Positions 2,542 through 18,556 of a stretch of DNA of 37,328 nt are shown piece by piece. Position numbers and translations under genes: made by a program. The stretch is from Deltaproteobacteria bacterium (GTDB lineage Bacteria > Desulfobacterota > Syntrophobacteria > BM002). The notes under the pieces were generated by a model. The model had not been told where the DNA came from. It made no database searches and saw only the letters and a program-made list of their open reading frames with translations. Every line of letters begins with the position of its first letter. Within the stretch, counting starts at the first letter, position 1. Where the stretch lies: assembly GCA_019309045.1 (NCBI GenBank), contig JAFDGZ010000028.1, positions 1-37,328 on the forward strand. Reading direction: 5' to 3'.

Positions 2542-3454
2542 ATGACGGCAATTCAGACTGTCAAACTTGGCAAAGTATACACCACAAGGCTCACCAGGAA
2601 AGTTGCAGCGCTGCAAGATCTTGACCTGCAAGTGCAGCGGGGTGAGATATTTGGTTTCCTCGGTCCCAACGGGGCCGGCAAGAGTACGACCATAAAACTT
2701 CTCATGAATCTCATAAGGCCTTCCACGGGTGAAGCCCAGATTCTGGGTGTGCCGGTGACTGAATCCTCGTCGCGTCAGAATGTGGGATATCTACCTGAAA
2801 ACCCGCAATATTATGGCTACCTGACAGGCCAGGAACTGCTGCACATGGTGGGAGAGATCCACGGCATGGCGAAGGAAGATATCCACAAGCGATCCAGTGA
2901 ACTTCTCGAACTTCTGGATTTACCCGTGGAAAAAAAGAGGTACATATCAGGATTTTCAAAAGGGATGATGCAGCGGGTTGGCCTGGCGCAGGCCATAATC
3001 CACAATCCAGAAGTCATAGTGCTCGACGAACCCATGTCCGGCCTCGACCCCCCAGGCCGCAGACTTGTCACCGATCTGATGCTGAGGCTGCGAGACTGTG
3101 GAGGTGATATGTGACCGCATTGGCATCATCACTGGGGGCAGGCTGAGGTTCTGTGGGACTCTGGCAGATGTGATCTCCGAGAGTTTTTCTTCATATGAGG
3201 TGATCTTGCGCAAGGTTTCCAGGGAACAATTGCGGATCCTGGAGGACAAGGGGTTTCGGCCCAGGAGTGTAGAAGACAAGGTAAAGGTGGCAGTTGCCAA
3301 AGAAAACATTGCTGCCTTTGTGGGTGATTTTGTCAATTCCCAAGGGGAACTGGTTGCCATAGAACCGATGCGCTTCACCCTGGAAGATTTTTTTATGGGT
3401 TTCGTGGAGGAGAAGCCCAACTCCCAGGTTGGCAGAAAGAGCCTGGTAGGATAA
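2542..3454 (+). pseudogene. ABC transporter ATP-binding protein, frame broken by internal deletion
   Basis: The first frame (2542-3114, ATG at 2542) has Walker A GPNGAGKST (residues 41-49), a Q-loop region (LPENPQ), signature SGFSKGM and Walker B VIVLDEPMSGLDP, then stops with TGA at 3112 soon after LRLRD. The +1 frame resumes from 3098 as VEVICDRIGIITGGRLRF and runs to the stop at 3452-3454, with a usual ATPase C-terminus. The segment expected between, about 14 residues including the H-loop histidine (G-K-T-V-F-F-S-S-H-I-L type), is absent. One base stands where about 42 are expected, so roughly 41 bases appear missing. Without the switch histidine and in two frames, an active ATPase is unlikely. 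The gene follows the permease and helical-repeat genes. Assembly error in place of a real mutation cannot be excluded. Confidence 0.8.
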
Positions 3455-3464
3455 AGAAGACAAC

Positions 3465-5858
3465 ATGGACAGGAAAAAAAAGCAACTTGATCCTGACTTC
3501 ATATCCCTCCTCTTGCTTCTCTTTCTGGGTCTCCTTGCTTATTCTAATAGCTTTCTAGCAAGCTTCCATTACGATGACATTACTCGCATTGTACAGAATG
3601 ATGCCATCCTTGATATTGGCAATCTAAGACAAATTTATTCATACTGCCCGGAGCGTTTCCTCGTCTACCTAACACTGGCGCTCAACTACAGACTGAGCGG
3701 CTTTGACACTACCAGCTACCATATCGTCAATTTTTTCATCCACTATTTTGCTACAATCTTTCTCTACTTTTTTTGCCTCGAAATCTGGAAAACTCCTGCC
3801 TTGAAAGCAAACGATCAGAAATTTCCCCTTCACGTTATGGCCTTTCTGGTGGCAGGCATTTTTTGTCTCCATCCTCTCCAGACAGAATCGGTAACTTACA
3901 TCATTCAGCGGGCAGAAAGTATGGCAGGTATGTTCTATTGGGGCGCAATGCTTTTTTATATGAAGGCACGGCTGTCTGCCAGTAGCAGAACCGCAATTGG
4001 CTATTATTTAGCCACTTTACTTTGTGGTCTGGGCGCTGCCTTTTCGAAAGAGACTGCTATTACACTGCCCATTATGATAGTGGCGCTTGAAGTGTTGTTT
4101 TTCGAAACTTCCATCAGAGATGTCGCCAAAAACAAGATAATTTTCGCCCTATTTATTCCGATTGGTATCGCAATTGCCTACAAGCTGGCCGCAGTGGTTC
4201 AGAGAGATTTTTATTACGATCCTGACATACCATACACTAGGACGCAGTACTTTTTGACTCAATTCAGTGTGTTGTTGACTTATTTACGACTTTTCTTCTG
4301 GCCGGCCAACCAGAATCTTGACTATGATTATCCTGTAGCTACTTCCTTTATTGATTTCAGGACCGTCTCTGCCTTTGCAGTCTTGTTGCTGTTCTTGACG
4401 CTGGCGATCATCTGTCGTCGAAAATACCGATGCCTCTCTTTTGGCATCATCGGGTTTTTTGTCACCCTGGCGCCTACCTCCAGTGTGATCCCCATCAAAG
4501 ATCTCATTTATGAACACAGAATGTATCTAGCGGTAGGCTTTCTGGCAATGGCAGCCGTAGAAGTGGTTTGGCGCCTCGTTTGCCGTGAAAAAGCCCCAGT
4601 TTCCGCGTTATCAAGAGTTGGCGCTCTCACAGGGATAGCTCTCACACTATTATTGCTGTCGGCTGTCACATACAGCCGGAACAATGTCTGGTTCACTGAT
4701 CTCACTTTATGGCGGGATGTGGTGGCCAAGTCGCCGGGGAAGACTAGACCGCATTTGAACTATGGCATGGCTCTTTACAAGTACTCATTTGGCGATCTGA
4801 AAAACGCCAAAAAGGAGTTTGAAATTGCTAGAGAATTATGTCCGACATGCCCGATGCCTTATCATAATCTTGCCTTTATTCTCTGGAAGGAGGGGGACTA
4901 CCAGGGGGCAGTCAGACTGTACCAACAAGCTCTTCAGCGAGACCCTGCCTATGAAGATTCCCTCTATCAGTTGGGCAGGCTCTATAAGAATCTGGGGCAA
5001 TGGGAAGATGCCCGCAAACAACTGGAGCGATTAATTGGACTTTCTCCAGGTTTTAGGTTCATTCAAGCATATCTTGATCTCATAGAAGTCTATCAGGCAA
5101 CTGATCTCCCTCAAGAAGCTGCCGAGCTCGCCAGTGTTATCAGCCGTATGCCCGATGGGCTACCCCACATTGACTACCACCGAGGACTGGCTTATTTCAA
5201 GCTATATGATTATCAGAAAGCCGAGCAATATCTTGCTGAGGCGGCTACGAAGGACACGGCTTCATCCATAAGAGTTTCCGCCAATCTCCTGCTTGCGCAG
5301 ATCTACTATGAAGAGAATAATTACCAGAAATCTGAAGAAGCATTCTTGCGGGTACTCGACGACAATGCCTGGTCAGTAACTGCCCATTATAATCTAGCCC
5401 TTCTCCTGGAACGTAAGGGACGACTGGCTGAAGCTCGCGAACACCTTGAAAAAATCCTGGTTGTCGACCCGTTCTGCATTGATGCGGCTGTGCAGTTAGT
5501 TGGAATTTATGATCGTTTGGGTGATGCAGTCAGGCGAACTGATATGCTGATAAAATTGCTTGGTCTACGACCTACTTCCAGAGAATACTTTTATTTAAAG
5601 GCCCATGAGAACGCCGATTTCAGAAATACGTTACGTACTTATTCCCAGAAGTTCCTCCTGCTGTATTCTTCCCCACGATCTTTGCGGGCAGGGGCAATTA
5701 TTGCCACACTAGAAGGAGATTATCCGTCAGCTATTAAAAGTTACCAGAGATATCTTCTAGGTGAGAGGAATTCAGTAAGCAGGGAAAGAGTCGGCAAAGA
5801 AATTCAGCGTCTCCAGGAACTGCTTCAAGGCAAGAGTAACCTCAGAAGAGGTGTGTAA
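3465..5858 (+). CDS. TMTC-like GT-C membrane protein with C-terminal TPR repeats
   Basis: A 797-residue protein in two parts. The N-terminal half (about 1-415) has around ten hydrophobic segments. Its first extracytoplasmic loop holds FHYDD (Asp37-Asp38), matching the acidic pair of GT-C glycosyltransferases of the TMTC/PMT-like group; HPLQTESVTYIIQRAE (about 138-153) is another typical stretch. The C-terminal half (about 420-790) is a run of TPR repeats, e.g. Y-H-N-L-A-F-I-L-W-K-E-G-D-Y and A-H-Y-N-L-A-L-L-L-E-R-K-G-R. Proteins of this shape use a polyprenyl-phosphate sugar to modify exported proteins or glycans. It starts 10 bases after the broken ATPase gene and is probably in the pilin-linked operon. 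A paralogue lies at 28045-30039. The ribosome site is weak (AAAGAAG). Acceptor and sugar are unknown. Confidence 0.8.
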   Translation: MDRKKKQLDPDFISLLLLLFLGLLAYSNSFLASFHYDDITRIVQNDAILDIGNLRQIYSYCPERFLVYLTLALNYRLSGFDTTSYHIVNFFIHYFATIFLYFFCLEIWKTPALKANDQKFPLHVMAFLVAGIFCLHPLQTESVTYIIQRAESMAGMFYWGAMLFYMKARLSASSRTAIGYYLATLLCGLGAAFSKETAITLPIMIVALEVLFFETSIRDVAKNKIIFALFIPIGIAIAYKLAAVVQRDFYYDPDIPYTRTQYFLTQFSVLLTYLRLFFWPANQNLDYDYPVATSFIDFRTVSAFAVLLLFLTLAIICRRKYRCLSFGIIGFFVTLAPTSSVIPIKDLIYEHRMYLAVGFLAMAAVEVVWRLVCREKAPVSALSRVGALTGIALTLLLLSAVTYSRNNVWFTDLTLWRDVVAKSPGKTRPHLNYGMALYKYSFGDLKNAKKEFEIARELCPTCPMPYHNLAFILWKEGDYQGAVRLYQQALQRDPAYEDSLYQLGRLYKNLGQWEDARKQLERLIGLSPGFRFIQAYLDLIEVYQATDLPQEAAELASVISRMPDGLPHIDYHRGLAYFKLYDYQKAEQYLAEAATKDTASSIRVSANLLLAQIYYEENNYQKSEEAFLRVLDDNAWSVTAHYNLALLLERKGRLAEAREHLEKILVVDPFCIDAAVQLVGIYDRLGDAVRRTDMLIKLLGLRPTSREYFYLKAHENADFRNTLRTYSQKFLLLYSSPRSLRAGAIIATLEGDYPSAIKSYQRYLLGERNSVSRERVGKEIQRLQELLQGKSNLRRGV

Positions 5859-6188
5859 AGGACGTTAGCCGGTGGTTGCCGGGTTATACCTTTCCAAGAC
5901 GATATCTTTATATTTCTGCAAGCGAATAAAAAACGAGATTGTTTGAGCTAATTAACCTTATCTACTTACCATAGAGCAGGTATTTCAGCGCTTTTATGTA
6001 GAAAAGCTTCGTCTTGTATCCAGGAATCTGCCCCGCAACTTGGCATAGAAGATGCTAGATGGAATACCACGGTAGTGCTTGGTCAAGGAGTAATTTAGAA
6101 TATTCTGTGCCTCTTACGGTCGTAAAACATACCAGGAGATATGATTTGATAAGCATATGTCTCGCTGGTTAACTGTGGAGGAAAAAGA
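5859..6188. other. 330-base intergenic region before the opgB-like gene
   Basis: No convincing ORF. Base composition becomes AT-rich towards the opgB-like gene. It contains a sigma-54-like sequence (listed separately) and, at its 3' end, a strong ribosome site GGAGG at 6177-6181. Confidence 0.6.
6041..6055 (+). promoter_or_regulatory. Possible sigma-54 (RpoN) promoter
   Basis: TGGCAT-N5-ATGC keeps the GG and GC dinucleotides at the 12-base spacing of the -24/-12 consensus TGGCAC-N5-TTGC, with 8 of 10 consensus bases. It lies about 130 bases before the opgB-like start. Matches this good arise by chance, and I saw no clear enhancer site, so it is only a candidate. Confidence 0.25.
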
Positions 6189-8060
6189 GTGAATATTCCA
6201 TTCTATTTCTATTCTTCAGTATTTCTATATGTTATTAGCGTAATCTTATATAAGAAGAAGAGTTCATTCCTGAGCAATGGCTTCTTTTATATTCTTCTTC
6301 TCATTTGTTTTATACTATATTTATTTTATGGCGTTGCTAATTATTTCACCGGACGTGGTATAGATGACTCTGTTATATTCCATCTCAAATATGGTTTACA
6401 GGGTGCAGGATTTTCGGCATATACAACACTTATTATAAAAGTAATCATAATAATTATTTTGACAAGTATATTGCTTGCCGTAGTACTCGGACAGAAGAAA
6501 CATGCTATTTCCCGCTTAATACCTAGCAACAGATTACCGTTTATATTTATTATAACAGCATTAGTTCTAAATCCGGCAACTATAAACATGTTTGATCTAA
6601 CAGTAAATGAAGCAAAGGCAAACAGAATCATAAGACATAGCACTCTTTTCGGGGAAGATAGTATAAATAAGTCTGAATTCGCCAAATATTATCGCAAGCC
6701 ATATTTGAAAAAGGTATCTAAAAAGAATAAAAATTTGGTTCTTATCTATGGAGAAGGCCTAGAGCGCACTTATTTTGATGAAACAGTATTTCCAGAACTA
6801 ATTCAAGGATTGCGACAGCTCGAAGCGAAAAGTACGTACTTTACCAATATAAAAGAGGTAGCAGGAACTGGTTGGACAATTGGCGGCATGGTCGCCAGTC
6901 AATGCGGCTTGCCACTGTTTACACCTTCTCATGGGAACTCCATGTCAGGTATGGATTCCTTTCTTGCTTCCGCAGTTTGCCTTGGTGATTTATTGCATGA
7001 AGAAGGATACGAACTCGTATATTACGGTGGAGCTGATCTTGCCTTTGCCGGGAAAGGTTTATTTTACGGCACTCATAAATTTGATGAGATTTGCGGAAGA
7101 CAGGAATTACTGCCCAGGATCGCAGACCAATCTTACAGGTCAGGATGGGGGCTCTATGATGATTCCCTGTTAGATTTAGCCTTCAAGCGCTTTATGGAAT
7201 TGTCGGCGGTAAAAAAGAAATTTGGCCTCTTTTTGCTTACCTTGGACACCCATCATCCCGAAGGTGATCCCTCACAGAGCTGTAAAAGAAGAATCTACCG
7301 GGATGGCTCCAATCCCATACTCAATGCGGTGAGTTGTTCTGACTACTTACTAACGAAATTTGTAAGCAAAATTATGGAAAGCCCCTATGCAGACAACACT
7401 GTCGTTGTCATTGTTTCAGATCATCTCAGTCTGAGAAATACCGCTTCAGATTTGTTGAACAGGATGGCCCGCAGGAATCTTTTCATGATTCTGGAAAGCG
7501 GTACAAACGAGGCGAGAAAGATAGAAAAATTGGGATCAACTCTCGATATTGGGACGACAATATTGCCTTTCATTGGTTATGAGGGGACAATAGGATTGGG
7601 ACGAAATCTGTTAGGACTAGATGAAACAATGGCAGATATAAAATATATCCAGGATCATCTAACCTCATGGAAGACATACATATCTGAGTTCTGGAATTTT
7701 CCAAAAATTCATGACTTTATCGCAATTGATATTGACCAGAAGAAGCTGACAATTGACGACAGAGTATTTAAAATTCCAATTCTGGTGGAATTCGATGCTG
7801 ACTTACAAACAAACATGAAATTTGAATTTGATATAACAAAAAAAGACAGAAAGTTAATCAATTATGTTCGTGATGTTACAGATGATAAAGGTTTTATTTT
7901 CGTTGACTATTGCGACTACGCTGCTCTTCTTGACAAGAATGTAGGACATAATGGTTACTGTATGGTAATAGGTAGAGGACAAAATTATACTAAAGCATTA
8001 GAATTATACGGTAAGCTTAAGATAACAGCAGAAGACATCCGCAAGTTGGCAGCTTTCTAA
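6189..8060 (+). CDS. opgB: OpgB/MdoB-like phosphoglycerol transferase (sulfatase fold)
   Basis: Phosphoglycerol transferase I moves sn-1-phosphoglycerol from phosphatidylglycerol onto periplasmic glucans. The 623-residue protein has about four N-terminal membrane segments (residues 5-20, 30-50, 78-100, 115-130) and a periplasmic sulfatase-like domain. From memory it matches E. coli OpgB closely: FTGRGIDDSV (53-62), GEGLERTYFD (188-197; Glu189 metal ligand), the Thr nucleophile in GTGWT-IGGMVASQCG (Thr230), TLDTHHP and SDHL (Asp411, His412). It lacks about 140 C-terminal residues of the E. coli enzyme (763). It starts at GTG 6189 behind a strong GGAGG. Its DNA is clearly more AT-rich than its neighbours, suggesting horizontal gain. 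No opgG or opgH is present, so the acceptor may be another polymer, perhaps the polysaccharide made by this cluster. Confidence 0.85.
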   Translation: MNIPFYFYSSVFLYVISVILYKKKSSFLSNGFFYILLLICFILYLFYGVANYFTGRGIDDSVIFHLKYGLQGAGFSAYTTLIIKVIIIIILTSILLAVVLGQKKHAISRLIPSNRLPFIFIITALVLNPATINMFDLTVNEAKANRIIRHSTLFGEDSINKSEFAKYYRKPYLKKVSKKNKNLVLIYGEGLERTYFDETVFPELIQGLRQLEAKSTYFTNIKEVAGTGWTIGGMVASQCGLPLFTPSHGNSMSGMDSFLASAVCLGDLLHEEGYELVYYGGADLAFAGKGLFYGTHKFDEICGRQELLPRIADQSYRSGWGLYDDSLLDLAFKRFMELSAVKKKFGLFLLTLDTHHPEGDPSQSCKRRIYRDGSNPILNAVSCSDYLLTKFVSKIMESPYADNTVVVIVSDHLSLRNTASDLLNRMARRNLFMILESGTNEARKIEKLGSTLDIGTTILPFIGYEGTIGLGRNLLGLDETMADIKYIQDHLTSWKTYISEFWNFPKIHDFIAIDIDQKKLTIDDRVFKIPILVEFDADLQTNMKFEFDITKKDRKLINYVRDVTDDKGFIFVDYCDYAALLDKNVGHNGYCMVIGRGQNYTKALELYGKLKITAEDIRKLAAF

Positions 8061-8266
8061 TTAATAGGACTATATAATAATAGCTTAATACTATTTACTG
8101 CCAGGTATGATGGTGTCTATATTTCTTACATGAGATTTACTATGAGTTGCTGTATATAACAATATTATAATCGACTGGATAAATAGTTGGCAAAACCCAC
8201 GCAATACATATGGTATAGTGGAGTAATGCTTAAAGAAAGCTGTGAATATCTGCACTAATTGTTATA

Positions 8267-8288
8267 GGTTGATGGCAAAATGAAAGTG
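8267..8288 (+). repeat. Left terminal inverted repeat (22 bp)
   Basis: Exact reverse complement of 8486-8507; no mismatch over 22 bases. Confidence 0.85.
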
Positions 8289-8312
8289 CAACCCCTTCAC
8301 CACACATTTGCT

Positions 8313-8336
8313 AGCCGCAACCTCCAGGTTGCGGCT
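8313..8336. repeat. Perfect 11-bp-stem palindrome inside the element
   Basis: AGCCGCAACCT and its complement are separated by only two bases (CC). The stem is GC-rich and could form a cruciform or an RNA hairpin. No T-run follows. Confidence 0.7.
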
Positions 8337-8485
8337 GCGGCCGTCATTACAATGGTGGCATGGCGCCATTGCTTCTTGAGACTGATAGCGATACAGGGAC
8401 AAGGCTAAAGCCTATGGCAAGCAACTCACCGCCGTGCCTCGAATCCCCTGACAAGCCTTGTTAACCGATCTTGGTTGTCTAGGTA

Positions 8486-8507
8486 CACTTTCATTTTGCC
8501 ATCAACC
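8486..8507 (-). repeat. Right terminal inverted repeat (22 bp)
   Basis: Exact reverse complement of 8267-8288. Similarity between the ends falls off just inside the arms, as expected for transposon termini. Confidence 0.85.
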
Positions 8508-8559
8508 GTATGCTTTGTTCATAGCGATACTGATAGTGGTTGCAAGGAAGTGTATTGAG

Positions 8560-10011
8560 ATGTCCAGTATGGTCGACGTATTTGTGCTCAATCCACCAGT
8601 GGCAAAAGATTTTTGCCGTTCAGCTCGCTGGGCCGCCCGCTCGAGAGGACGCGTCCAGCGCCATCCAGACTGGCTGCTGACAGCTGTAGCAGTGCTGGAG
8701 AGAGCCGGCTTTGAAGTTGCTTTCTTGGATGCTGCTGCTATGGGCCTGGATCGGCAAGCAGTGATCGCTGCTGTTGAGGAAAATCCCCCTGGTCTACTGG
8801 TACTGCACACCACAACTCCTTCCATAGACTCAGATCTCGGCTATGCTGCCCTGCTGAAAGACCGCCTTGCAGAATGCCGAACGGTGGCGGTTGGGGCTCA
8901 TGTGACCGCCGAACCAGTGGACACACTCGTGAGGGCTCGAGGAGCGCTGGATGTTGTGGTGAGGGGAGAATATGATTACACTTTGAGAGAACTGGCGGAA
9001 TTGGCTGGTTCTTCTTGGACGATGCCTGGACTGGCTCAAGTGCAAGGAATTTCTTATCTCAACGACGAACAAGAGGTAATACCCTGCCCGGACAGACCGT
9101 TTTTGAACGTAAATGAACTCCCCTTCCCTGCCTGGCGTCATATTGATCCTCGCTGGTACCGTGATGCTGGCAAACGGTTCCCATTCATTACCTTGATTTC
9201 AGGAAGAGGCTGCTTTGGCTCATGCACATTCTGTAGAGATGTTGCCCTCATGGAAGGCAGAAAACTTAGAATGCGGGATCCGCGACTGGTGGTCGACGAA
9301 ATCGAGTATGATCTATCTCTATTTCCATACTTGCGAGAAGTAATGTTCGAGACCGACACCTTTACTGCCTCGTCTTTACACGTCAGTGGTGTCTGTGAGG
9401 AGATTCTCAGAAGAGATCTAAAAATTACCTGGTCGTGTAACTGCCGCACGGATGTAGACCTCAAATTGCTGCCGCTCATGAAAAGAGCAGGATGCCGGAT
9501 GCTTATGGTGGGATTTGAATTTGGTACGCAGACGGCCCTGGATGCAGTAAAAAAGGGCATAACTCTCGAGCAGTCAGTTTGCTTTGCAGAGGAAGCCGCC
9601 AGACTCGGATTTACTTTGCACGGCTGTTTCATGTTTGGAGCTCCCGGTGAAACTAGAGAGTCGGCCATGGAGACTATAGAATTCGCCAAGTCTCTACCCC
9701 TTGATACTGTTCAGTTCTCTGGTATCTGTGCCTACCCGGGTTCAGAGATTTACAGATGGGCCAGGGCGCACGGCTACCTGGTACCTGACACCTGGAGACA
9801 GTGGGTAGATGAGAACTGGGAGCAGGTCACGGTGCTCGACTATCCTCAACTGAGAAAAGAAGAAATCGACGAGTTGATTGACAGGGGGCTGAAGGAGTTT
9901 TATTTGAGGCCAAAACAGATGATCCGCATGGTGAGAGAGATGCAATCCCTGGCTGATATAAAAAGGAAGCTGTACGGTCTGCGGACGTTTTGGCAGAGTC
10001 AAATGATGTAG
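8560..10011 (+). CDS. B12-binding-type radical SAM protein
   Basis: A 483-residue cytoplasmic enzyme. Residues about 1-145 look like a cobalamin-binding Rossmann domain (VDVFVLNPP, then LLVLHTTTPS and TVAVGAHVTAEP); the core radical SAM domain follows, with the cluster motif CFGSCTFC (Cys218, Cys222, Cys225). MLMVGFEFGTQ and FMFGAPGET are typical of the B12-binding radical SAM class that includes methyltransferases and hopanoid enzymes. I chose ATG 8560 because AAGGAAG (8544-8550) lies nine bases upstream; an upstream extension would run into the inverted-repeat element. It precedes the wzm/wzt exporter by about 225 bases, so modification of a glycan or lipid precursor is plausible. Substrate is unknown. 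Confidence 0.85.
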   Translation: MSSMVDVFVLNPPVAKDFCRSARWAARSRGRVQRHPDWLLTAVAVLERAGFEVAFLDAAAMGLDRQAVIAAVEENPPGLLVLHTTTPSIDSDLGYAALLKDRLAECRTVAVGAHVTAEPVDTLVRARGALDVVVRGEYDYTLRELAELAGSSWTMPGLAQVQGISYLNDEQEVIPCPDRPFLNVNELPFPAWRHIDPRWYRDAGKRFPFITLISGRGCFGSCTFCRDVALMEGRKLRMRDPRLVVDEIEYDLSLFPYLREVMFETDTFTASSLHVSGVCEEILRRDLKITWSCNCRTDVDLKLLPLMKRAGCRMLMVGFEFGTQTALDAVKKGITLEQSVCFAEEAARLGFTLHGCFMFGAPGETRESAMETIEFAKSLPLDTVQFSGICAYPGSEIYRWARAHGYLVPDTWRQWVDENWEQVTVLDYPQLRKEEIDELIDRGLKEFYLRPKQMIRMVREMQSLADIKRKLYGLRTFWQSQMM

Positions 10012-10236
10012 GGAAGTGGCATTACCAGGTCAGAAAAGCCCGAGCAATGAGGCGCATACATGTGTGCTGAACTACCTGTTATTTATGGCATATGTGGTCT
10101 GACTGTGGAGGTCCCTGGCTCGGACGTGCCGGATAGGTTTTATTCGTTGCTCCGGGTCAAACGACAAGGTCGTCAGTGAAGTCTATTGCTCCTGGCAGGT
10201 CACCGCCAGGGGCTGCTACGCAGTATTCTGGAGCTT

Positions 10237-11175
10237 ATGTCCATCCAGGAATGTATATTTGCCATTCAACTCGAGCAGCCCAAACAAGAGAGTATCAGCA
10301 ATATTGACATGCAACAGCACGAGAATGATCAGTTGATTGAAATAATCTACAGCGCCGATTCATATCTGAGACGGCCGGCACAGTTGGTACGGAGTATGGT
10401 ACGCGACTTTCTGGCTGCGCGCGAACTTGCCTGGCGCCTGTTTGTGCGTAATGTCAACGCAATGTATCGCCAAACGATTCTTGGGTATATCTGGGCTTTC
10501 TTGCCACCTTTGTTCACTGCCCTTGTCTTTGTGTTCTTGAATTCTCAGAGGATTCTCAATGTGGGAGAAACGCGTCTTCCATATCCAGCATATGCCTTGA
10601 TAGGTACAGTGCTTTGGCAGACATTTACTGACGCACTGAATAGTCCGCTCCGGATGATCAATCAGTCGAAGTCTTTTATCATTAAAATAAATTTTCCTCG
10701 AGAAGCTCTTATCTTAGCTGGCTTGGCAGAGGTTTTCTTCAACTTCACCATCCGTCTAGTTCTGCTGCTATTAGTTTTTTGTTGGTATCGCCTGCCAATT
10801 TCTCCAAGTATTTTATTCGTTCCTCTAGGAGTTATTTCTCTTGTGGCTTTGGGTTTATTTTTCGGAATATTCCTGGTTCCTCTGGGTGTACTTTACCAGG
10901 ATATAGAAAAGGCACTGCCATTGTTCACCTCGATCTGGCTGTTACTTACGCCTGTTGTCTATCCACCGCCTGTGAGTTGGCCAGCTTCTCTGATCTCTAT
11001 CATAAATCCGGTGAGTCCTCTTTTGGTCAATACCCGTGAGATGCTTACCAATGGGAGCTGTACAAATATGTCAGGTTTCTATCTGGTAGTGGGGTTGACA
11101 TTCCTGTTTCTTCTAGTGGGCTGGGTTCTGTATCGGCTGGCTCTACCACATTTGATTGAACGGCTGGGCGCTTGA
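10237..11175 (+). CDS. wzm: O-antigen/polysaccharide ABC exporter permease (Wzm-like)
   Basis: The membrane subunit of an ABC-2 polysaccharide exporter, moving completed lipid-linked glycan across the inner membrane. An N-terminal amphipathic region is followed by the family motif V-R-N-V-N-A-M-Y-R-Q-T-ILGYIWAFLPPL and about six membrane segments, with VPLGVLYQDIEKALPL and LLTPVVYPP in the usual places. The start is uncertain: ATG 10237 has a GGAG too close upstream (three bases); ATG 10309 and a TTG at 10186 are alternatives, and homologues would favour a shorter N-terminus. The ATPase gene wzt starts 88 bases downstream, the usual order for this exporter type. Confidence 0.88.
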   Translation: MSIQECIFAIQLEQPKQESISNIDMQQHENDQLIEIIYSADSYLRRPAQLVRSMVRDFLAARELAWRLFVRNVNAMYRQTILGYIWAFLPPLFTALVFVFLNSQRILNVGETRLPYPAYALIGTVLWQTFTDALNSPLRMINQSKSFIIKINFPREALILAGLAEVFFNFTIRLVLLLLVFCWYRLPISPSILFVPLGVISLVALGLFFGIFLVPLGVLYQDIEKALPLFTSIWLLLTPVVYPPPVSWPASLISIINPVSPLLVNTREMLTNGSCTNMSGFYLVVGLTFLFLLVGWVLYRLALPHLIERLGA

Positions 11176-11263: not shown

Positions 11264-12523
11264 ATGGTTCGTGAAAACATAGTCGACGTCAAGGATTTAT
11301 CCAAGAAATTCTGCCGCGATCTCAGAAGATCATTGTGGTATGGGCTTGAGGATATTGCCCGGGAAATGACAGGCCGTCCGCCGGCTGAAATTGGTTTGCG
11401 CCAGCAAGAGTTTTGGGCCCTCAAAGGCATAACTTTTCAGGTAAAGCGAGGCGAATGTCTCGGGTTGATCGGCCGCAACGGTGCCGGAAAGAGTACAATT
11501 TTGAAATTACTCCATGGTCTGATCAAACCCAGTGGAGGACGCATTGCGATCCATGGAAGTGTTGGTGCATTGATCGAATTAGGCGCGGGTTTCAATCCAA
11601 TTCTAACAGGCAGAGAAAATATTTACATTAATGCATCTCTGTTGGGTATTTCCAAGAAAAAAGTAACAAAACTTTTTGATCAAATAGTTGCCTTTGCAGA
11701 AATTGACGACTTCATTGATGCACCTGTCCAAAGTTATAGTTCTGGAATGCAAGTACGGCTCGGATTTGCCATCGCCGCACATATTAATCCTGACTTGCTA
11801 CTCGTTGATGAGGTGCTAGCTGTAGGAGATATAACTTTCCAACGGAAATGTTTACAATATATGACAAGTTACTTAGAGAAAGGAGGCTCAATTATTTTAG
11901 TCTCACATAATATGCACTTGATTCAATCCATTTGTCATAAATGTTTAGTGCTAGATCATGGAAGAGTTAGATTCAACGGCTTAGTAACTGATGCAATATC
12001 TACTTATTATAATATACACTTCTTGTTAGAAAATAATAATTCTGCTATCTCACCAAATAAAATTGCTGACAAACAGTCTATTGTTATTGAAAAAGTGGAT
12101 ATGATTCCTGCTGATGGTGGGCAAGTCAAGACAGGTCAAGACGTTTATCTGACGTTACACTACCAATCGGCTGCAGACCTTGGCGAGATTACCTGGGGAT
12201 TTTCAATCTGGACCGCCGATCAACGGACTCGCATTGCAACGTGCACTGCCAAACATGCGCAGAAAAGTTACAAGCTTTTCAAGGGAAAAGGACAATTGCG
12301 CTGCAAACTACGCTCCCTTCCTCTAGTGGCTGGCTCCTATGTGGTCAAGGCAGGGATATATGATACGAAGACGTCTTGGCCCATTGCTAGAAAAGGATGG
12401 GACGACATACCCGGATATTTTGAAGTAAAACCATCGGGAAGTGAAGTTGATAATCGCAGAATGATAGATGGGGACATTGTGATAATGAATGTTGAATGGA
12501 TCACGCAAAATGGATCTTTTTAA
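11264..12523 (+). CDS. wzt: O-antigen/polysaccharide ABC exporter ATPase with C-terminal Wzt domain
   Basis: The 419-residue ATPase partner of wzm. Residues 1-250 hold the nucleotide-binding domain: Walker A GRNGAGKST (70-78), signature YSSGM (158-162), Walker B LLLVDEVLAVGD (Asp182-Glu183) and H-loop His215 in VSHN. Residues about 275-419 form an extra beta-rich domain (V-D-M-I-P-A-D-G-G-Q-V, later GSYVVKAGIYD) corresponding to Wzt_C, which in known systems binds the modified non-reducing end of the glycan before export. That implies an end-capped polysaccharide in this cluster. Codon use in the region about 11820-12080 is visibly AT-rich compared with the rest of the gene. The call is secure; the recognised cap is unknown. 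Confidence 0.92.
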   Translation: MVRENIVDVKDLSKKFCRDLRRSLWYGLEDIAREMTGRPPAEIGLRQQEFWALKGITFQVKRGECLGLIGRNGAGKSTILKLLHGLIKPSGGRIAIHGSVGALIELGAGFNPILTGRENIYINASLLGISKKKVTKLFDQIVAFAEIDDFIDAPVQSYSSGMQVRLGFAIAAHINPDLLLVDEVLAVGDITFQRKCLQYMTSYLEKGGSIILVSHNMHLIQSICHKCLVLDHGRVRFNGLVTDAISTYYNIHFLLENNNSAISPNKIADKQSIVIEKVDMIPADGGQVKTGQDVYLTLHYQSAADLGEITWGFSIWTADQRTRIATCTAKHAQKSYKLFKGKGQLRCKLRSLPLVAGSYVVKAGIYDTKTSWPIARKGWDDIPGYFEVKPSGSEVDNRRMIDGDIVIMNVEWITQNGSF

Positions 12524-12653: not shown

Positions 12654-13529
12654 ATGTCAGAAATTGCTATTTTAATTCGTACCTATAATGAAGAGACATT
12701 TTTGCCATATACACTTGAAGCGCTTCTGGCACAAACTGAAAAGGCCTTCGATGTCATATTGGTAGACTCTGGGTCTACCGATAGCACACTGGCAATCGCC
12801 GGCACCTATGAAGATATAAAGATTATTGAAATTCCAAAACAAGAATTTACCTATGGCAGAGCCTTGAATATTGGCATAGCAGCGGTGGTCGACCGGGCAA
12901 AGTATATTGCTATGCTAAGTGCTCATGCAATTCCATGTAACGAGAATTGGTTGAGCGAACTGTTGGTTCCTGTGCGGGAACATTCCCGAGTGGTGGCAGT
13001 GTACGGCAAGCAAATTCCTTTTCCAGGGCACCTGAACAATCCAATTGTCCGTGCGCTGGCTTGTGAGGCATATCCAAAATGTTACGGAGACAAACCTTTC
13101 AGGACCAGCGAGTCGTACTTCTTCTCCAATGTGAACAGTCTGATTACTATTGATAGTTGGCTGAAAAACAAATTTGATGAATCACTTGTGGCATGTGAAG
13201 ACTGGCAGTGGGCCAAGATGGCTGTTGATTGTGGAGGGGTGATTGCCTATCAGCCAGGGGCAGCAGTTTATCATTCACACCTCGATAGTTATGCGAGTTA
13301 TTTTACTCGACTTCGCCGAGAAGCAATGGGGGCCAGGAAGATAGATCCAATTTCTCATCCTCCACTAAGGCGACAGGAATGCTGGCATTTGGTGAAGTAT
13401 GCCTTTCTAGATTATCTGAGACGCAGCAAACAGCGAAGATCACTTGTCGACATACACTGGGATATCTTTCGCTATAAGGTAGTCGCAACGCTGGCTACTT
13501 ATAAAGGACGAAAAGATGCGAGAGTCTGA
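12654..13529 (+). CDS. Family 2 glycosyltransferase
   Basis: A 291-residue GT-A fold enzyme, cytoplasmic, using a nucleotide sugar. It begins with AILIRTYNEE, has VDSGSTDST (about 39-47) as the nucleotide-binding loop, and LSAHAIP in the place of the DxD motif, as in rhamnosyltransferase-like GT2 members. A C-terminal EDWQWAKMA stretch supplies the probable catalytic acid. ATG 12654 follows a TTG in frame; a weak GGAAGG lies about 16 bases upstream. The 3' end overlaps the next gene by 14 bases, indicating coupled expression. Sugar specificity cannot be read from the sequence. Confidence 0.85.
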   Translation: MSEIAILIRTYNEETFLPYTLEALLAQTEKAFDVILVDSGSTDSTLAIAGTYEDIKIIEIPKQEFTYGRALNIGIAAVVDRAKYIAMLSAHAIPCNENWLSELLVPVREHSRVVAVYGKQIPFPGHLNNPIVRALACEAYPKCYGDKPFRTSESYFFSNVNSLITIDSWLKNKFDESLVACEDWQWAKMAVDCGGVIAYQPGAAVYHSHLDSYASYFTRLRREAMGARKIDPISHPPLRRQECWHLVKYAFLDYLRRSKQRRSLVDIHWDIFRYKVVATLATYKGRKDARV

Positions 13530-14823
13530 CCAGAAGGTTCTATTTCTTTTGTTGGACGCCTTTAGGCATGACTACATCAACTCAGTAGACACACCTTTTT
13601 TATATTCCAAAATCTCACAGGGTGTATATGCAAAGAAGTTGAAAAGCGTTGCGGGTTTTACTCAGAGAACAGCTATCTACACAGGAACTACTGGTGTGGA
13701 AAGTGGAATGTTCACCATGTTCACCTTTGACTCGGCAAGATCTCCATTCCGTTTTTTGCAGGGCTCTGCAAAACTAAGGAAGTTCTCGTCAGGGCGCCGT
13801 TGGTGGGATGCACTTCCTGCCTGGCCTGGCTTTGGCTTGCTACGGGAGATCCTGAATCGCTGCTTTCAAAACAGATTGGTAAGTTTTCGGGAGTGGATAG
13901 CAAAAGAAGCCAAAAACTACGCGGCGCACGCACCTCTGGCACAAATTCCTCTATATCTGTTGCCAGAAATAGGGGTCTCCGAGGACAACCTTCCCGTCTA
14001 TCTGCCGGGGGCCTTCAAGCAGGAGAGTATATTTGACGTATTTCAGCAAACAGGCATCCTGTACGAATATCTCATGTATCCGGTTATAGACTGCCAGGAT
14101 GACGATGTCTTGGAAGCGTTCATTCAAAAAAGGGAGTCAGCCTCACACATCCTGCTCGGCCAATTTTCTGACTCAGACATGATTGTCCACCATTGTGGAC
14201 CCGATTCATATGAACGTCGCAAAGTAGCAGGCGAAATTGATCGCAAGTTACGTGAAATCGCCGCCAGTTATGGCAATAATACCACTTGGATTATCGTGGG
14301 TGACCACGGTATGACCGAGGTAAAGGAAGAGATAGACGTTCCTGCCCTGCTTGCCCCGATTGAAAGCAGATTAAATGTTGAGATGGGCCGGGACTACTTG
14401 CTTTTTCTCGATTCAACCATGGCGCGCTTCAGGTGGAAGTCGGAGGCTGGCAAACTCTTTCTTGATGAAGTAAAGAAGCAGGAGCAATTATTAAAGAAGG
14501 GCTTTTTCATTGATGAGAAATTGGCCAATGAATATTCTATTCCCTATCCTGATAAACGGTATGGTGATTTGATTTGGTGGGCAAATAATGGCGTGCTGCT
14601 TTTCCCGGACTATTTTCACGACCGGCACACCCATGTCAAAGGAATGCATGGATATAGGTCAGACCACGATGACATGAAGGGTTTCTTCCTTGCCTTCGGT
14701 CCAGAGATTCAACCAAGGGTAATAGAAGAAGTCAATTTGATTGATGTGTGTCCTTCTATTTGCGCAGCAGTGGCTGTCCGAAGCACGGAAAGTAATAGAG
14801 GTACTTGCCTACTGGTGAGCTGA
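13516..14823 (+). CDS. Alkaline-phosphatase-superfamily phosphodiesterase (type I NPP/sulfatase-like), soluble
   Basis: A 435-residue protein with no signal peptide or membrane segment, so apparently cytoplasmic. It shows the superfamily metal motifs: LLLDAFRHD (Asp14), a Thr-rich nucleophile region GFTQRTAIYTGTTG (Thr49 or Thr52 candidate), FSDSDMIVHHCGP, GDHGMTEV and MHGYRSDHDDMKG near the C-terminus. These order as in type I phosphodiesterase/nucleotide pyrophosphatase proteins (PF01663-like). It overlaps the upstream GT2 by 14 bases and its stop overlaps the start of the nucleotidyltransferase-fold gene (TGATG), so the three are probably translated together. It may cleave or transfer a phospho-linked group on a glycan precursor; that is inference. 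Confidence 0.75.
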   Translation: MRESDQKVLFLLLDAFRHDYINSVDTPFLYSKISQGVYAKKLKSVAGFTQRTAIYTGTTGVESGMFTMFTFDSARSPFRFLQGSAKLRKFSSGRRWWDALPAWPGFGLLREILNRCFQNRLVSFREWIAKEAKNYAAHAPLAQIPLYLLPEIGVSEDNLPVYLPGAFKQESIFDVFQQTGILYEYLMYPVIDCQDDDVLEAFIQKRESASHILLGQFSDSDMIVHHCGPDSYERRKVAGEIDRKLREIAASYGNNTTWIIVGDHGMTEVKEEIDVPALLAPIESRLNVEMGRDYLLFLDSTMARFRWKSEAGKLFLDEVKKQEQLLKKGFFIDEKLANEYSIPYPDKRYGDLIWWANNGVLLFPDYFHDRHTHVKGMHGYRSDHDDMKGFFLAFGPEIQPRVIEEVNLIDVCPSICAAVAVRSTESNRGTCLLVS

Positions 14824-15923
14824 TGCCGAAGTTTACGCTCCACAATCGGGTTGATATTGAAAATGACGTACAGGAGGACTTGAATTTTATTGTTGACAGC
14901 ATCAAAGCGAGTAATCTCGAGTACTCTTCAATATATCTGATCGGAGCGTTTGGTCGCGGCGAAGGTACAGTGAGATTTGATGGCAGTCGCTGGCGTGCTG
15001 TTAATGACTATGACTTGCTGGTAATAGCACCAAATTGCGAAAGAATTGGCCCATTTCTGCAAACTCTTGCTGGCAAACTAGCGCAGTCTCTGAAAGTAGA
15101 CTTTGTAGATCTTGGCTGTGTACAGAGAAGATCACTGCCTTTTCTGCAATGCACCATTCAGAACTATGACTTCAAATATGGCAGTAAGCTGTTGGCGGGT
15201 GAGGACGTGCTCGGCGAGGTCCCGCAATTTCGGCGGGAAGACATTGGCCCCTATGAAATAGTGCGGCTCATCTGTAATCGTGCGGCTGGTCTTCTGTCAG
15301 CTCATCTGCCGGAGAATGTCAGCTCGCGGCAATATTATGCAAATCAATGCATGAAGGCTTGTATTGCTACGGGTGATGCAGCGGTGTACCTGGTTAAGGG
15401 GTATCATCACCTTTACGCAGCTAGACTAGAGATGTTTCGTAGTCTTGCTGCTGGTGCCAAACTTCCTTTTTCCTTGCCGCAAGAAGCGATAGAAGCTGTG
15501 ATTGCAGCATATGAATGGAAACTGAAAGGACTTCATTCCAAGATGTTTTCTATTGATAAAGCACTGATGAAAATTATTATTAGCGAAGTGTATTGTGCGA
15601 TTACGAGGTATTGTACTGGTAAGCACGTGTTCACAGTTGCTCAGGCCGAACGAGAACTTCTAAAATACTTTAAAAATAATAAGAAGTACGGCAACAGTGT
15701 TACGACAGCACCCAAAATCGGCTTCTTGCATAGTATCAATAATGTTTTTGGAGTAAAAAATCGCACTCTATTTTCACAGCCCTTTTTCTATTGTCAGACA
15801 CCTTTGTCCAGGACACAATTTGTAAAAGAGGTTTGCCAAAGATTCTGGATGATTCCTGCAATATTTAGAAATATGAATAATCCCAACATTCCAGTATTAA
15901 TATGGGCTAGATTTCATCACTGA
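14823..15923 (+). CDS. Nucleotidyltransferase-fold protein of unknown substrate
   Basis: A 366-residue protein. The N-terminus has the pol-beta-type minimal pattern: LIGAFGRGEG (41-48 the glycine loop), then NDYDLLVIAP with Asp62 and Asp64, and a third acid in KVDFVDLG (Asp93/Asp96). The C-terminal 200 residues are helical, with Y-x-x-Q-C-M-K-A-C-I-A-T-G-D and basic patches, but I recognise no domain. I chose ATG 14823, which shares bases with the preceding TGA and has GGTGAG just upstream; a TTG 18 bases earlier is less likely. Linked to a phosphodiesterase and the wzm/wzt genes, it could add a nucleotidyl or phospho group to a sugar, lipid or protein. An antitoxin-like or regulatory role is not excluded. 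Confidence 0.65.
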   Translation: MPKFTLHNRVDIENDVQEDLNFIVDSIKASNLEYSSIYLIGAFGRGEGTVRFDGSRWRAVNDYDLLVIAPNCERIGPFLQTLAGKLAQSLKVDFVDLGCVQRRSLPFLQCTIQNYDFKYGSKLLAGEDVLGEVPQFRREDIGPYEIVRLICNRAAGLLSAHLPENVSSRQYYANQCMKACIATGDAAVYLVKGYHHLYAARLEMFRSLAAGAKLPFSLPQEAIEAVIAAYEWKLKGLHSKMFSIDKALMKIIISEVYCAITRYCTGKHVFTVAQAERELLKYFKNNKKYGNSVTTAPKIGFLHSINNVFGVKNRTLFSQPFFYCQTPLSRTQFVKEVCQRFWMIPAIFRNMNNPNIPVLIWARFHH

Positions 15924-15982: not shown

Positions 15983-18556
15983 ATGCGGATACTTGTAATT
16001 TCCAATCTTTATCCACCCCACCATGCTGGCGGCTATGAGCTTGCCTGTGAGGAGATGGTTGCAAATCTCAAAGGGCGAGGACACGAAATTATTGTACTTA
16101 CAAGCACTTATGGTGAAGGACGACTGCAAACTGAAGATGATGTCTATCGTTGGTTAATGCTTCGTTTTGAGAGAAGGGTTAACTGGAGAGATGTTCTTCT
16201 CAAAGAGAGGCTCAATCAAGCAGCCTTCAGACATGTCTGTGAAGAGTTCTCGCCCGAGGTCGTTTTTTTTTGGAACATGTCTCACATTTCTATTTCACTG
16301 GCAGCAATAGCAAGAGATATGGGATTGCCGACTTGTTACTATATTTTTGACAACTGGCTGGCAACATGGGAAATGGATCACTGGTTTCAGCTGTGGCGTG
16401 CCAGGGGTAAGGGACTCGACTATTTTCTACACAGATTGTTGTCACGAAAATTTGCCTTGATTGTGCCGCCATTTCTCTGGGATATGTCTTCAGTAGTATT
16501 TGCCAGTAGTTACTTGAAAAGTGTTGCCCTCAGCGTTGGCAAACCTGTCCAAGACGCAGCTGTTGTTCACTGGGGCATCGACATCGACAAATTTCCGTAT
16601 AAGTCAACGGATTCTCCAGTACCTAGCCGGCTTCTCTATGTCGGCCAAATAGTGCCTCACAAGGGCATTGAAACCGTCATTGAAGCTTTGGGGATAACCA
16701 GACAATCACTGGGCGACAGAAGTCTGTCCTTTGATATCGTTGGGGATCATGACGGTGCAAGTACCTACACAGCTTTCTTGAAGGATGTTGCAGGAAGATG
16801 CGACGTTGATGATCGAATTGCCTTTATAGGTGCGGTGTTGCGTGAGAATCTCCCCAATGTATACCAGAGCCACGATATCTTGGTCTTTCCTTCCCTCTGG
16901 GATGAGCCATTCGGCATAACTCAGCTGGAGGCGATGTCATCTGGCCTTGCTGTGATTGGCACAGGTACCGGTGGCAGTGCTGAAATTCTGGAAAGTGAGG
17001 TTAACTGTCTTACCTACTCCAAAGGAGATGCAGCAGGATGTGCTCGACAGATATCTCGCTTACTTGAAAACCGCAGTCTGTTCAGAACATTGCGAAGAAA
17101 TGGCCGAAAGACTGTTGAAAAGAAGTTCCGCATTGATCAGACGGTTGATTTGTTGGAAAAGGCACTTGTTGATGCTCCCAAGGTGCAGAGATCCAATAAG
17201 AAAGTCTGGGAAGTCGCGACAACCAGCAAAAGAGTCAGAAGGCAAGAATTTGCAATTAAGGCGGCAAGCTATAAGAAGCAGCTGAAGCTGGTCAAACTGG
17301 CATGCCAAGCAGCTGAGATTCTCAATCCCTTACGCTGGGCCAAGAATCTGATAATAAGAAGTGAGATTATCCTGGTAGCCTTGGCCCTTGCCTTACTCCG
17401 CAAATCATCTCTTTTGCCGCCTTTGCGGAAGCCTGGCGCCGTTGCCTTTGCGGCGCACAGAATTCAAACTGTTTTGGTCATCCACTTGGCAGGTAAAGAC
17501 AGGGCAGTTCTAATAAGCCCATTTCTGCGCGAGTTGCGGAGATTTTTGCCTCATGCGTGGATTGGCCTTGTTGTAAGACCTGCCACTGCCAATCTTTTTG
17601 AAAAGTGTCCATATATCGATAAAGTCATGGTTTTTGACGGTGGAGGCATGGAGAATGGCGGCAAATCCAAAGATAGTCCGGTCCTTAGCTGGTTAGGGGC
17701 AATTCGTTATGTGATGCGTAATTTCAACAAGGTTCTGGTTGATATGGCCATATTGCCCGGATGGGAGGATGAAAGGGAGTTAACAGCATCACACGCCCTG
17801 ATGCGATTAATTGGCGCGCCATGGCGGCTGGGATACTTGGAGGCTACAGCTACACCAGTGCGACCCCAAAAAATATCATTAGACCAGCCGTTCACATACG
17901 GGCCGCAAAAGGGTATGCCCAGAAATGAAGTGGAGAGCCAGTTGGATATTCTCCGTTTCCTGGGAGCTCACATTGCCAGTACAGATACAGAGGTGTGGCT
18001 CTCTGAAGAAGACTACAGGTACGCAGGACGAGTTATGGCGAACGCAGCCAGTGACTCTGCTGACTTTGTCGTAGCATTGTCTCCTGGAGGGCAATATTCT
18101 GGACTGCAATGGCCTGTGGAGCGATTCATCCGGCTAGGGAGATGGTTGCAGGAGGATTACAATGCGTACATTCTTGTCATTGCCGATGACGCACATCTAG
18201 TGCCTGCATGCCAGATTTACAAGGGTCTTGTGCGAGGGCGTGCCATGTTTATCGGGGATTCGAGTAGGCCGCGACGGATAGCTGCACTTCTCGAGAGGTG
18301 CAAGATGTTTGTCGGCGCCTACTCCGGGCTAATCCACCTGGCAGCGGCAGTGGGCATACCAGTGATAACCATTTTCGGTCCGGAGGATTATAGACGTTTT
18401 AGCCCTAGGGGTGCAGGCCATGAGGTGATACGTTTGCACCTGTTGTGTGATCAATGCGGTGGGGCCTGTCTTTATACTTCTCCGCTGTGTTTGGACGGAA
18501 TCGAAGTAAGTAAGGTCAAGAGACTTGTTGCCGCTAAACTGGAACCCTGTCAATGA
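15983..18556 (+). CDS. GT4-GT9 fusion: two-domain glycosyltransferase
   Basis: An 857-residue protein joining two GT-B enzymes. Residues 1-400 are a family 4 glycosyltransferase: MRILVISNLYPPHHAGGYEL at the start, and the E-x7-E motif DEPFGITQLE (Glu308, Glu316). Residues about 400-490 form a helical, basic linker with a hydrophobic patch (461-473) that may touch the membrane. Residues about 494-857 resemble family 9 heptosyltransferases: VLVIHLAGKDRAVLISPFLREL, then ALSPGGQYSGLQWPVERF and FVGAYSGLIHLAAAVGIPVITIFGP. Two cytoplasmic transfer steps in one chain suggest consecutive additions to the same acceptor. No stop or frameshift lies between the halves, so the fusion is real in this sequence. 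The sugars are unknown; a heptose is possible for the second half. Confidence 0.88.
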   Translation: MRILVISNLYPPHHAGGYELACEEMVANLKGRGHEIIVLTSTYGEGRLQTEDDVYRWLMLRFERRVNWRDVLLKERLNQAAFRHVCEEFSPEVVFFWNMSHISISLAAIARDMGLPTCYYIFDNWLATWEMDHWFQLWRARGKGLDYFLHRLLSRKFALIVPPFLWDMSSVVFASSYLKSVALSVGKPVQDAAVVHWGIDIDKFPYKSTDSPVPSRLLYVGQIVPHKGIETVIEALGITRQSLGDRSLSFDIVGDHDGASTYTAFLKDVAGRCDVDDRIAFIGAVLRENLPNVYQSHDILVFPSLWDEPFGITQLEAMSSGLAVIGTGTGGSAEILESEVNCLTYSKGDAAGCARQISRLLENRSLFRTLRRNGRKTVEKKFRIDQTVDLLEKALVDAPKVQRSNKKVWEVATTSKRVRRQEFAIKAASYKKQLKLVKLACQAAEILNPLRWAKNLIIRSEIILVALALALLRKSSLLPPLRKPGAVAFAAHRIQTVLVIHLAGKDRAVLISPFLRELRRFLPHAWIGLVVRPATANLFEKCPYIDKVMVFDGGGMENGGKSKDSPVLSWLGAIRYVMRNFNKVLVDMAILPGWEDERELTASHALMRLIGAPWRLGYLEATATPVRPQKISLDQPFTYGPQKGMPRNEVESQLDILRFLGAHIASTDTEVWLSEEDYRYAGRVMANAASDSADFVVALSPGGQYSGLQWPVERFIRLGRWLQEDYNAYILVIADDAHLVPACQIYKGLVRGRAMFIGDSSRPRRIAALLERCKMFVGAYSGLIHLAAAVGIPVITIFGPEDYRRFSPRGAGHEVIRLHLLCDQCGGACLYTSPLCLDGIEVSKVKRLVAAKLEPCQ

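Follow-up and report, generated by a model that had tools for sequence, protein, structure and literature searches.

Introduction

In E. coli O9a, WbdD is responsible for a methyl-phosphate cap that is read by the carbohydrate-binding domain of Wzt (PMC3482155). For the phosphodiester glycans of C. difficile type A and P. aeruginosa b-type flagellins (cd0241-0244 and pa1088-1091), a CDP-activated route has been proposed (PMC11833859). ANT-type enzymes, for their part, transfer AMP from ATP to ring hydroxyls of aminoglycosides and spectinomycin (PMC4631478). Here, we analyzed a 37,328-nucleotide stretch of DNA (the window) in which the genes for a phosphodiesterase (PDE) and a nucleotidyltransferase (NTase) overlap within a glycan export cluster. 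Because the two are nearly always found together across distant bacteria and are sometimes fused, they probably constitute one machine, one that probably adds a phosphate-containing group to glycans. Our literature search for the PDE-NTase pair found no description of it, in line with the original prediction made on this window, which had called the device undescribed.

Results

Organization of the window cluster

The PDE gene (positions 13516 to 14823, + strand) encodes a 435-residue, predicted cytosolic NPP-type phosphodiesterase of the alkaline phosphatase superfamily. It is followed by the NTase gene (14823 to 15923, + strand; 366 residues counted from the ATG), whose product is a predicted pol-beta-type nucleotidyltransferase with C-terminal helices. 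At the junction, CTGATGCCG, stop and start codons overlap as TGATG (14821 to 14825, + strand, read from the sequence). The start of the PDE gene is in turn overlapped over 14 bases by an upstream GT2 glycosyltransferase gene (12654 to 13529, + strand; PF00535, E 1.7e-20), the third member of the module. Coordinates and sequence thus agree with the shared TGATG junction and the GT2 overlap originally described. Among the GT2s that we compared, the window GT2 is the nearest to the one overlapping the NTase in genome G155 (28% over 257 aa, E 8e-30).

The surrounding genes encode a Wzm-like ABC exporter permease (10186 to 11175, + strand; NF050109 galactan_ABC_perm, E 7e-6, under the cut-off), a Wzt ABC exporter ATPase (11264 to 12523, + strand; ABC_tran, E 3e-21) with a C-terminal Wzt_C domain (31.4 bits against a cut-off of 30.4), a GT4-GT9 fusion glycosyltransferase (15983 to 18556, + strand; PF00534 and PF01075) and further glycosyltransferases. 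The cluster also comprises an HpnJ-like B12 radical SAM protein (8458 to 10011), a type of protein shared with the Dehalococcoidia cluster discussed below (L001:2023-3459). Upstream of the exporter lies an MdoB-like phosphoglycerol transferase (6189 to 8060; NF003000, 455 bits, below the cut-off of 574), a second phospho-enzyme of the alkaline phosphatase superfamily. None of the window ORFs that we scanned was recognized as a methyltransferase.

The PDE has an NPP fold and invariant metal ligands

The PDE matched PF01663 in Pfam with 72 bits against a cut-off of 23 (E 9e-20); all 15 homologues belong to this family as well. Its structural model (pLDDT 84.8) displayed an NPP fold, the best PDB matches being NPP5 (5vem, E 1.5e-17), Xac NPP and ENPP6. 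All six metal ligands (D14, D221, H225, D263, H264 and H378) are invariant across the 15 homologues. The candidate nucleophile, aligned as T49 in the window, is Ser in most homologues and Gln/Glu in the fusion proteins of G317, G551 and G655. These GT2-fused PDEs (L051:10139-12736, L052:7056-9650 and the PDE region of L011) keep the metal ligands, with Gln/Glu replacing Ser/Thr. Since no 19-residue stretch of either protein is hydrophobic enough for a membrane span (maximal mean hydropathy of 1.24 for the PDE and 1.48 for the NTase), the original description of a soluble alkaline-phosphatase-superfamily protein is fair. A second, distinct PF01663 protein from outside the pair family is encoded in the G358 glycan cluster (L012:4525-6141).

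The NTase is recognized at the level of its fold

The NTase had no Pfam or NCBIfam family above cut-off or at a useful score, no PADLOC match at E 0.1 and, in a profile search against PDB sequences, a best match of E 0.08, which is below significance. The family libraries could not place it; its assignment is supported by the structural model and by Foldseek. The model reached a pLDDT of 74 overall and roughly 90 or higher across the catalytic domain, being confident across most of the first 150 residues and poor in the C-terminal third. The best Foldseek matches were AAD(9) (6xz0, E 7.7e-5), ANT, KNTase, HalB and LinB. The protein carries the motif GAFGRGEG at residues 41 to 48, D62-Y-D64 and D96. 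In the model, D62 stands just before the strand 63-69, D64 within it and D96 in the strand 95-101, so that the acidic triad, a point fixed in advance by the original prediction, is complete in the predicted structure. These predicted features support a pol-beta-type nucleotidyltransferase, as first proposed, that is ANT-like at the level of the fold only. An HMM of the LicD family found no match in 16 NTase members. In the NTase of G348 (L030:9296-10549), N-x-E and Gly occupy the positions of the acidic triad, and this copy is possibly inactive.

PDE and NTase occur together in two phyla

Because a single-sequence search of the order and class of the window returned the window itself as sole match, a profile search was needed, which covered 395 genomes from its phylum. 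The NTase was found in 12 genomes and the PDE in 12, with both in 11 (Fisher p 1.8e-19, a value that ignores relatedness, the 11 pair genomes representing seven family codes). In all 11, the two genes share a contig and lie no more than about 15 kb apart. The second phylum, to which the Dehalococcoidia genome belongs, had the NTase in 4 of 301 genomes, each time with the PDE within a few kb; at the Dehalococcoidia locus, seen in the first scan, the two genes overlap by ATGA. Joint conservation, the other point set beforehand, was therefore observed in both phyla. The exceptions were G339, which has the NTase only, and G209, with a PDE fragment at the end of a contig and no NTase. A plasmid collection searched with three NTases gave no match. 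Overall, the distribution of the pair is patchy (about 3% of the genomes).

Gene order varies, PDE-NTase in some loci and NTase-PDE in others, and overlaps occur in both orders. Pairwise distances within the two families are correlated (r 0.67, permutation p 5e-5, 12 genomes). The main split is the same in the PDE and NTase trees, with the exception of G155, where the two proteins fall into different subgroups; many of the forks are weak.

Additionally, in G317 the NTase and the PDE form a single polypeptide that continues into GT2, TPR and radical SAM regions (the last two recognized by eye), near flagellin genes. The giant ORFs of this genome (L011:9496-19320 and 3260-9499, - strand; 3274+ and 2079 aa) join NTase, PDE, GT2, TPR-like repeat, SPASM-like radical SAM and methyltransferase-like regions and adjoin the flagellin genes. 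In G551 and G655, a PDE-GT2 fusion is overlapped by the NTase, outside any glycan cluster. Given the Gln/Glu at the nucleophile position of the fusion clade and the degenerate triad of G348, some copies may act in another way or be inactive.

Genomic contexts of the pair

The pair was found in exosortase/O-ligase-type exopolysaccharide clusters, in a flagellin neighborhood, next to ABC export and in loci outside glycan clusters. We checked the exosortase-type proteins of G418 and G198; comparable neighbors were seen again in G383, G348 and the G200 group. Among the loci read, ABC export, and with it a Wzm/Wzt with carbohydrate-binding domain as in a WbdD-like system, stood beside the pair in the window only, and none of the Wzm/Wzt-type families recurred at three or more other loci of the pair. 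In G418 (L013:10261-11058) and G383 (L016:3904-4713), related methyltransferase genes directly adjoin the NTase or the PDE, a placement recalling the phosphorylate-then-methylate logic of WbdD.

A uridine kinase (PF00485) was present in 17 of the 395 genomes, 4 of them among the 11 pair genomes and 13 among the 384 others (p 0.00065). The association is post hoc and concerns four genomes; most pair genomes, including that of the window, have no uridine kinase. In the four (L012:14744-15376, L013:17367-18047, L065 and L072), the gene is the single genomic copy, located on the same contig 1 to 15 kb from a gene of the pair, with glycan genes on its flanks. The uridine kinase equivalog was above cut-off in G358, and in G418 for one of two models. 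We also considered whether the link merely reflects the common occurrence of this enzyme; in the 13 carriers lacking the pair, it mostly lies next to genes of housekeeping type (short flanks, judged by eye).

Discussion

In our judgment, there is an even chance that the PDE and the NTase form a cytosolic two-enzyme module, or a three-enzyme one with the GT2, that decorates a sugar or a nascent glycan with a substituent containing phosphorus, by the following steps. The NTase would take a nucleoside monophosphate (NMP), perhaps of a pyrimidine, from an NTP and attach it to a hydroxyl group on the sugar placed by its partner GT2, and the NPP-type PDE would then hydrolyze the resulting phosphodiester. 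In the relay that we prefer, the PDE would release the nucleoside while the phosphate stays on the glycan, and the uridine kinase, where its gene is present, would recycle that nucleoside. Alternatively, the PDE would release the NMP, which would make the pair a reversible cap. The analysis establishes the conserved pairing, the fusions, the predicted folds, the metal-site residues and the glycan context, and the correlated distances and the uridine kinase association also count in favor of the module. The substrates, the order of the steps and the P-O bond cut are put forward as a proposal; sequence cannot tell "add/remove" from "add, then trim to phosphate," and the association with the uridine kinase leans weakly to the latter. 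Classical NPPs release NMP, a precedent that favors the NMP-releasing version and counts against the preferred relay, since such release would reverse the NTase reaction instead of leaving a phosphate. Also speaking against the module as proposed are the one NTase found without a PDE, in G339, the lack of a uridine kinase in most pair genomes, the Gln/Glu and degenerate-triad copies, and a sequence similarity to ANTs that falls short of significance.

The original prediction had seen an add/remove pair beside an exporter whose Wzt has a cap-reading domain. What stands is that the two families act as a pair linked to glycan assembly and that their chemistries, nucleotidyl addition and phosphodiester cleavage, look opposite; the Wzt link is not supported as a generality, since contexts differ and, among the loci read, ABC export accompanies the pair in the window only. 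We therefore reject a Wzt-read cap as the general function, although an end cap may operate in the window cluster. We consider it rather unlikely that the NTase caps the glycan end with an NMP that the PDE removes for proofreading or length control, the cap being read in the window by the C-terminal domain of Wzt. The window does carry a Wzm/Wzt with a Wzt_C domain and, among its scanned ORFs, no methyltransferase, the ANT and NPP chemistries are opposite, and WbdD provides a precedent (PMC3482155); however, the exporter is not common to the other pair loci, and the release of an NMP would make a uridine kinase needless. Kinases encoded close to the pair, as in G155 (APH fold) and G434 (PfkB), among others, would suit a different, LicD-like scheme, in which the NTase-fold protein uses CDP-X as the donor of phospho-X for the glycan and the PDE corrects errors or breaks down surplus CDP-X. 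LicD uses this fold class. Nevertheless, this scheme seems improbable to us: Pfam gave no LicD-family match, Foldseek yielded ANTs and no LicD/FKRP-type protein among the matches listed, and no cytidylyltransferase partner was noted among the loci read.

It is also conceivable, if quite improbable, that the target is a protein. The NTase would then nucleotidylate either its partner glycosyltransferase or some other protein of the assembly, with the PDE removing the nucleotide, in the manner of GlnE or MNT-type control. The weak similarity to HalB and DrrA among the fold matches and the direct glycosyltransferase fusions, which would deliver both activities to that enzyme, are compatible with such a switch, but neither a HEPN nor a known target partner was seen, PADLOC was silent, and co-occurrence mostly follows glycan clusters rather than a single glycosyltransferase family. 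The lack of PADLOC matches and HEPN partners, together with the glycan-gene neighbors of most loci, likewise led us to reject a defense or toxin-antitoxin function. Finally, the patchy distribution could suggest unrelated accessory enzymes traveling together in mobile glycan clusters. We disfavor this as highly improbable in view of the NTase-PDE fusion, the overlaps in both gene orders, the correlated distances and the presence of both genes away from any glycan cluster in G551 and G655.

Returning to the preferred relay, it may tentatively represent a new route to phosphorylated glycans, in which ANT-fold nucleotidyl transfer is followed by removal of the nucleoside by an NPP-type PDE and, in some genomes, by salvage through uridine kinase; we regard this as possible, though doubtful. 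If true, this route would require neither a sugar kinase nor a CDP-activated donor and would be common to exopolysaccharide, flagellin-associated and ABC-exported glycans. At any rate, an unnamed NTase family is linked almost one-to-one to a PDE, often together with a glycosyltransferase, in at least two phyla. If confirmed, the module would account for phosphate or nucleotide groups that some bacteria attach to surface glycans or glycoproteins independently of the kinase and CDP-donor routes already known, and would offer a testable handle on the little-understood exosortase-linked glycans.

Comparison with known systems

The PDE shares with NPP5, Xac NPP and ENPP6 the fold, the six metal ligands and membership in PF01663. 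Unlike these NPPs, it has no signal peptide or membrane span that we could see, its nucleophile position is variable (Ser, Thr, Gln or Glu), with a nucleophile loop shorter by two residues in the window, and it is paired with or fused to an NTase and a GT2. The NTase, like AAD(9), AadA, KNTase and ANT(4'), the type of its top Foldseek hits, consists of a pol-beta domain with an acidic triad followed by a helical domain. However, it is longer, has no significant sequence similarity to them, has an inserted hairpin that separates the G-G/S motif from the D-x-D, and is accompanied by a PDE in glycan clusters. As for WbdD and Wzt of E. coli O9a, these are likewise cytosolic enzymes positioned to phosphorylate a Wzm/Wzt-exported glycan (PMC3482155), but the folds and chemistry of the pair differ, and the pair is not confined to ABC-exported glycans. 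The flagellin gene sets cd0241-0244 and pa1088-1091, for which, unlike for the pair, a CDP-activated route was proposed (PMC11833859), resemble it by description: in both cases, a small gene set would place a phosphate-linked substituent on a glycan.
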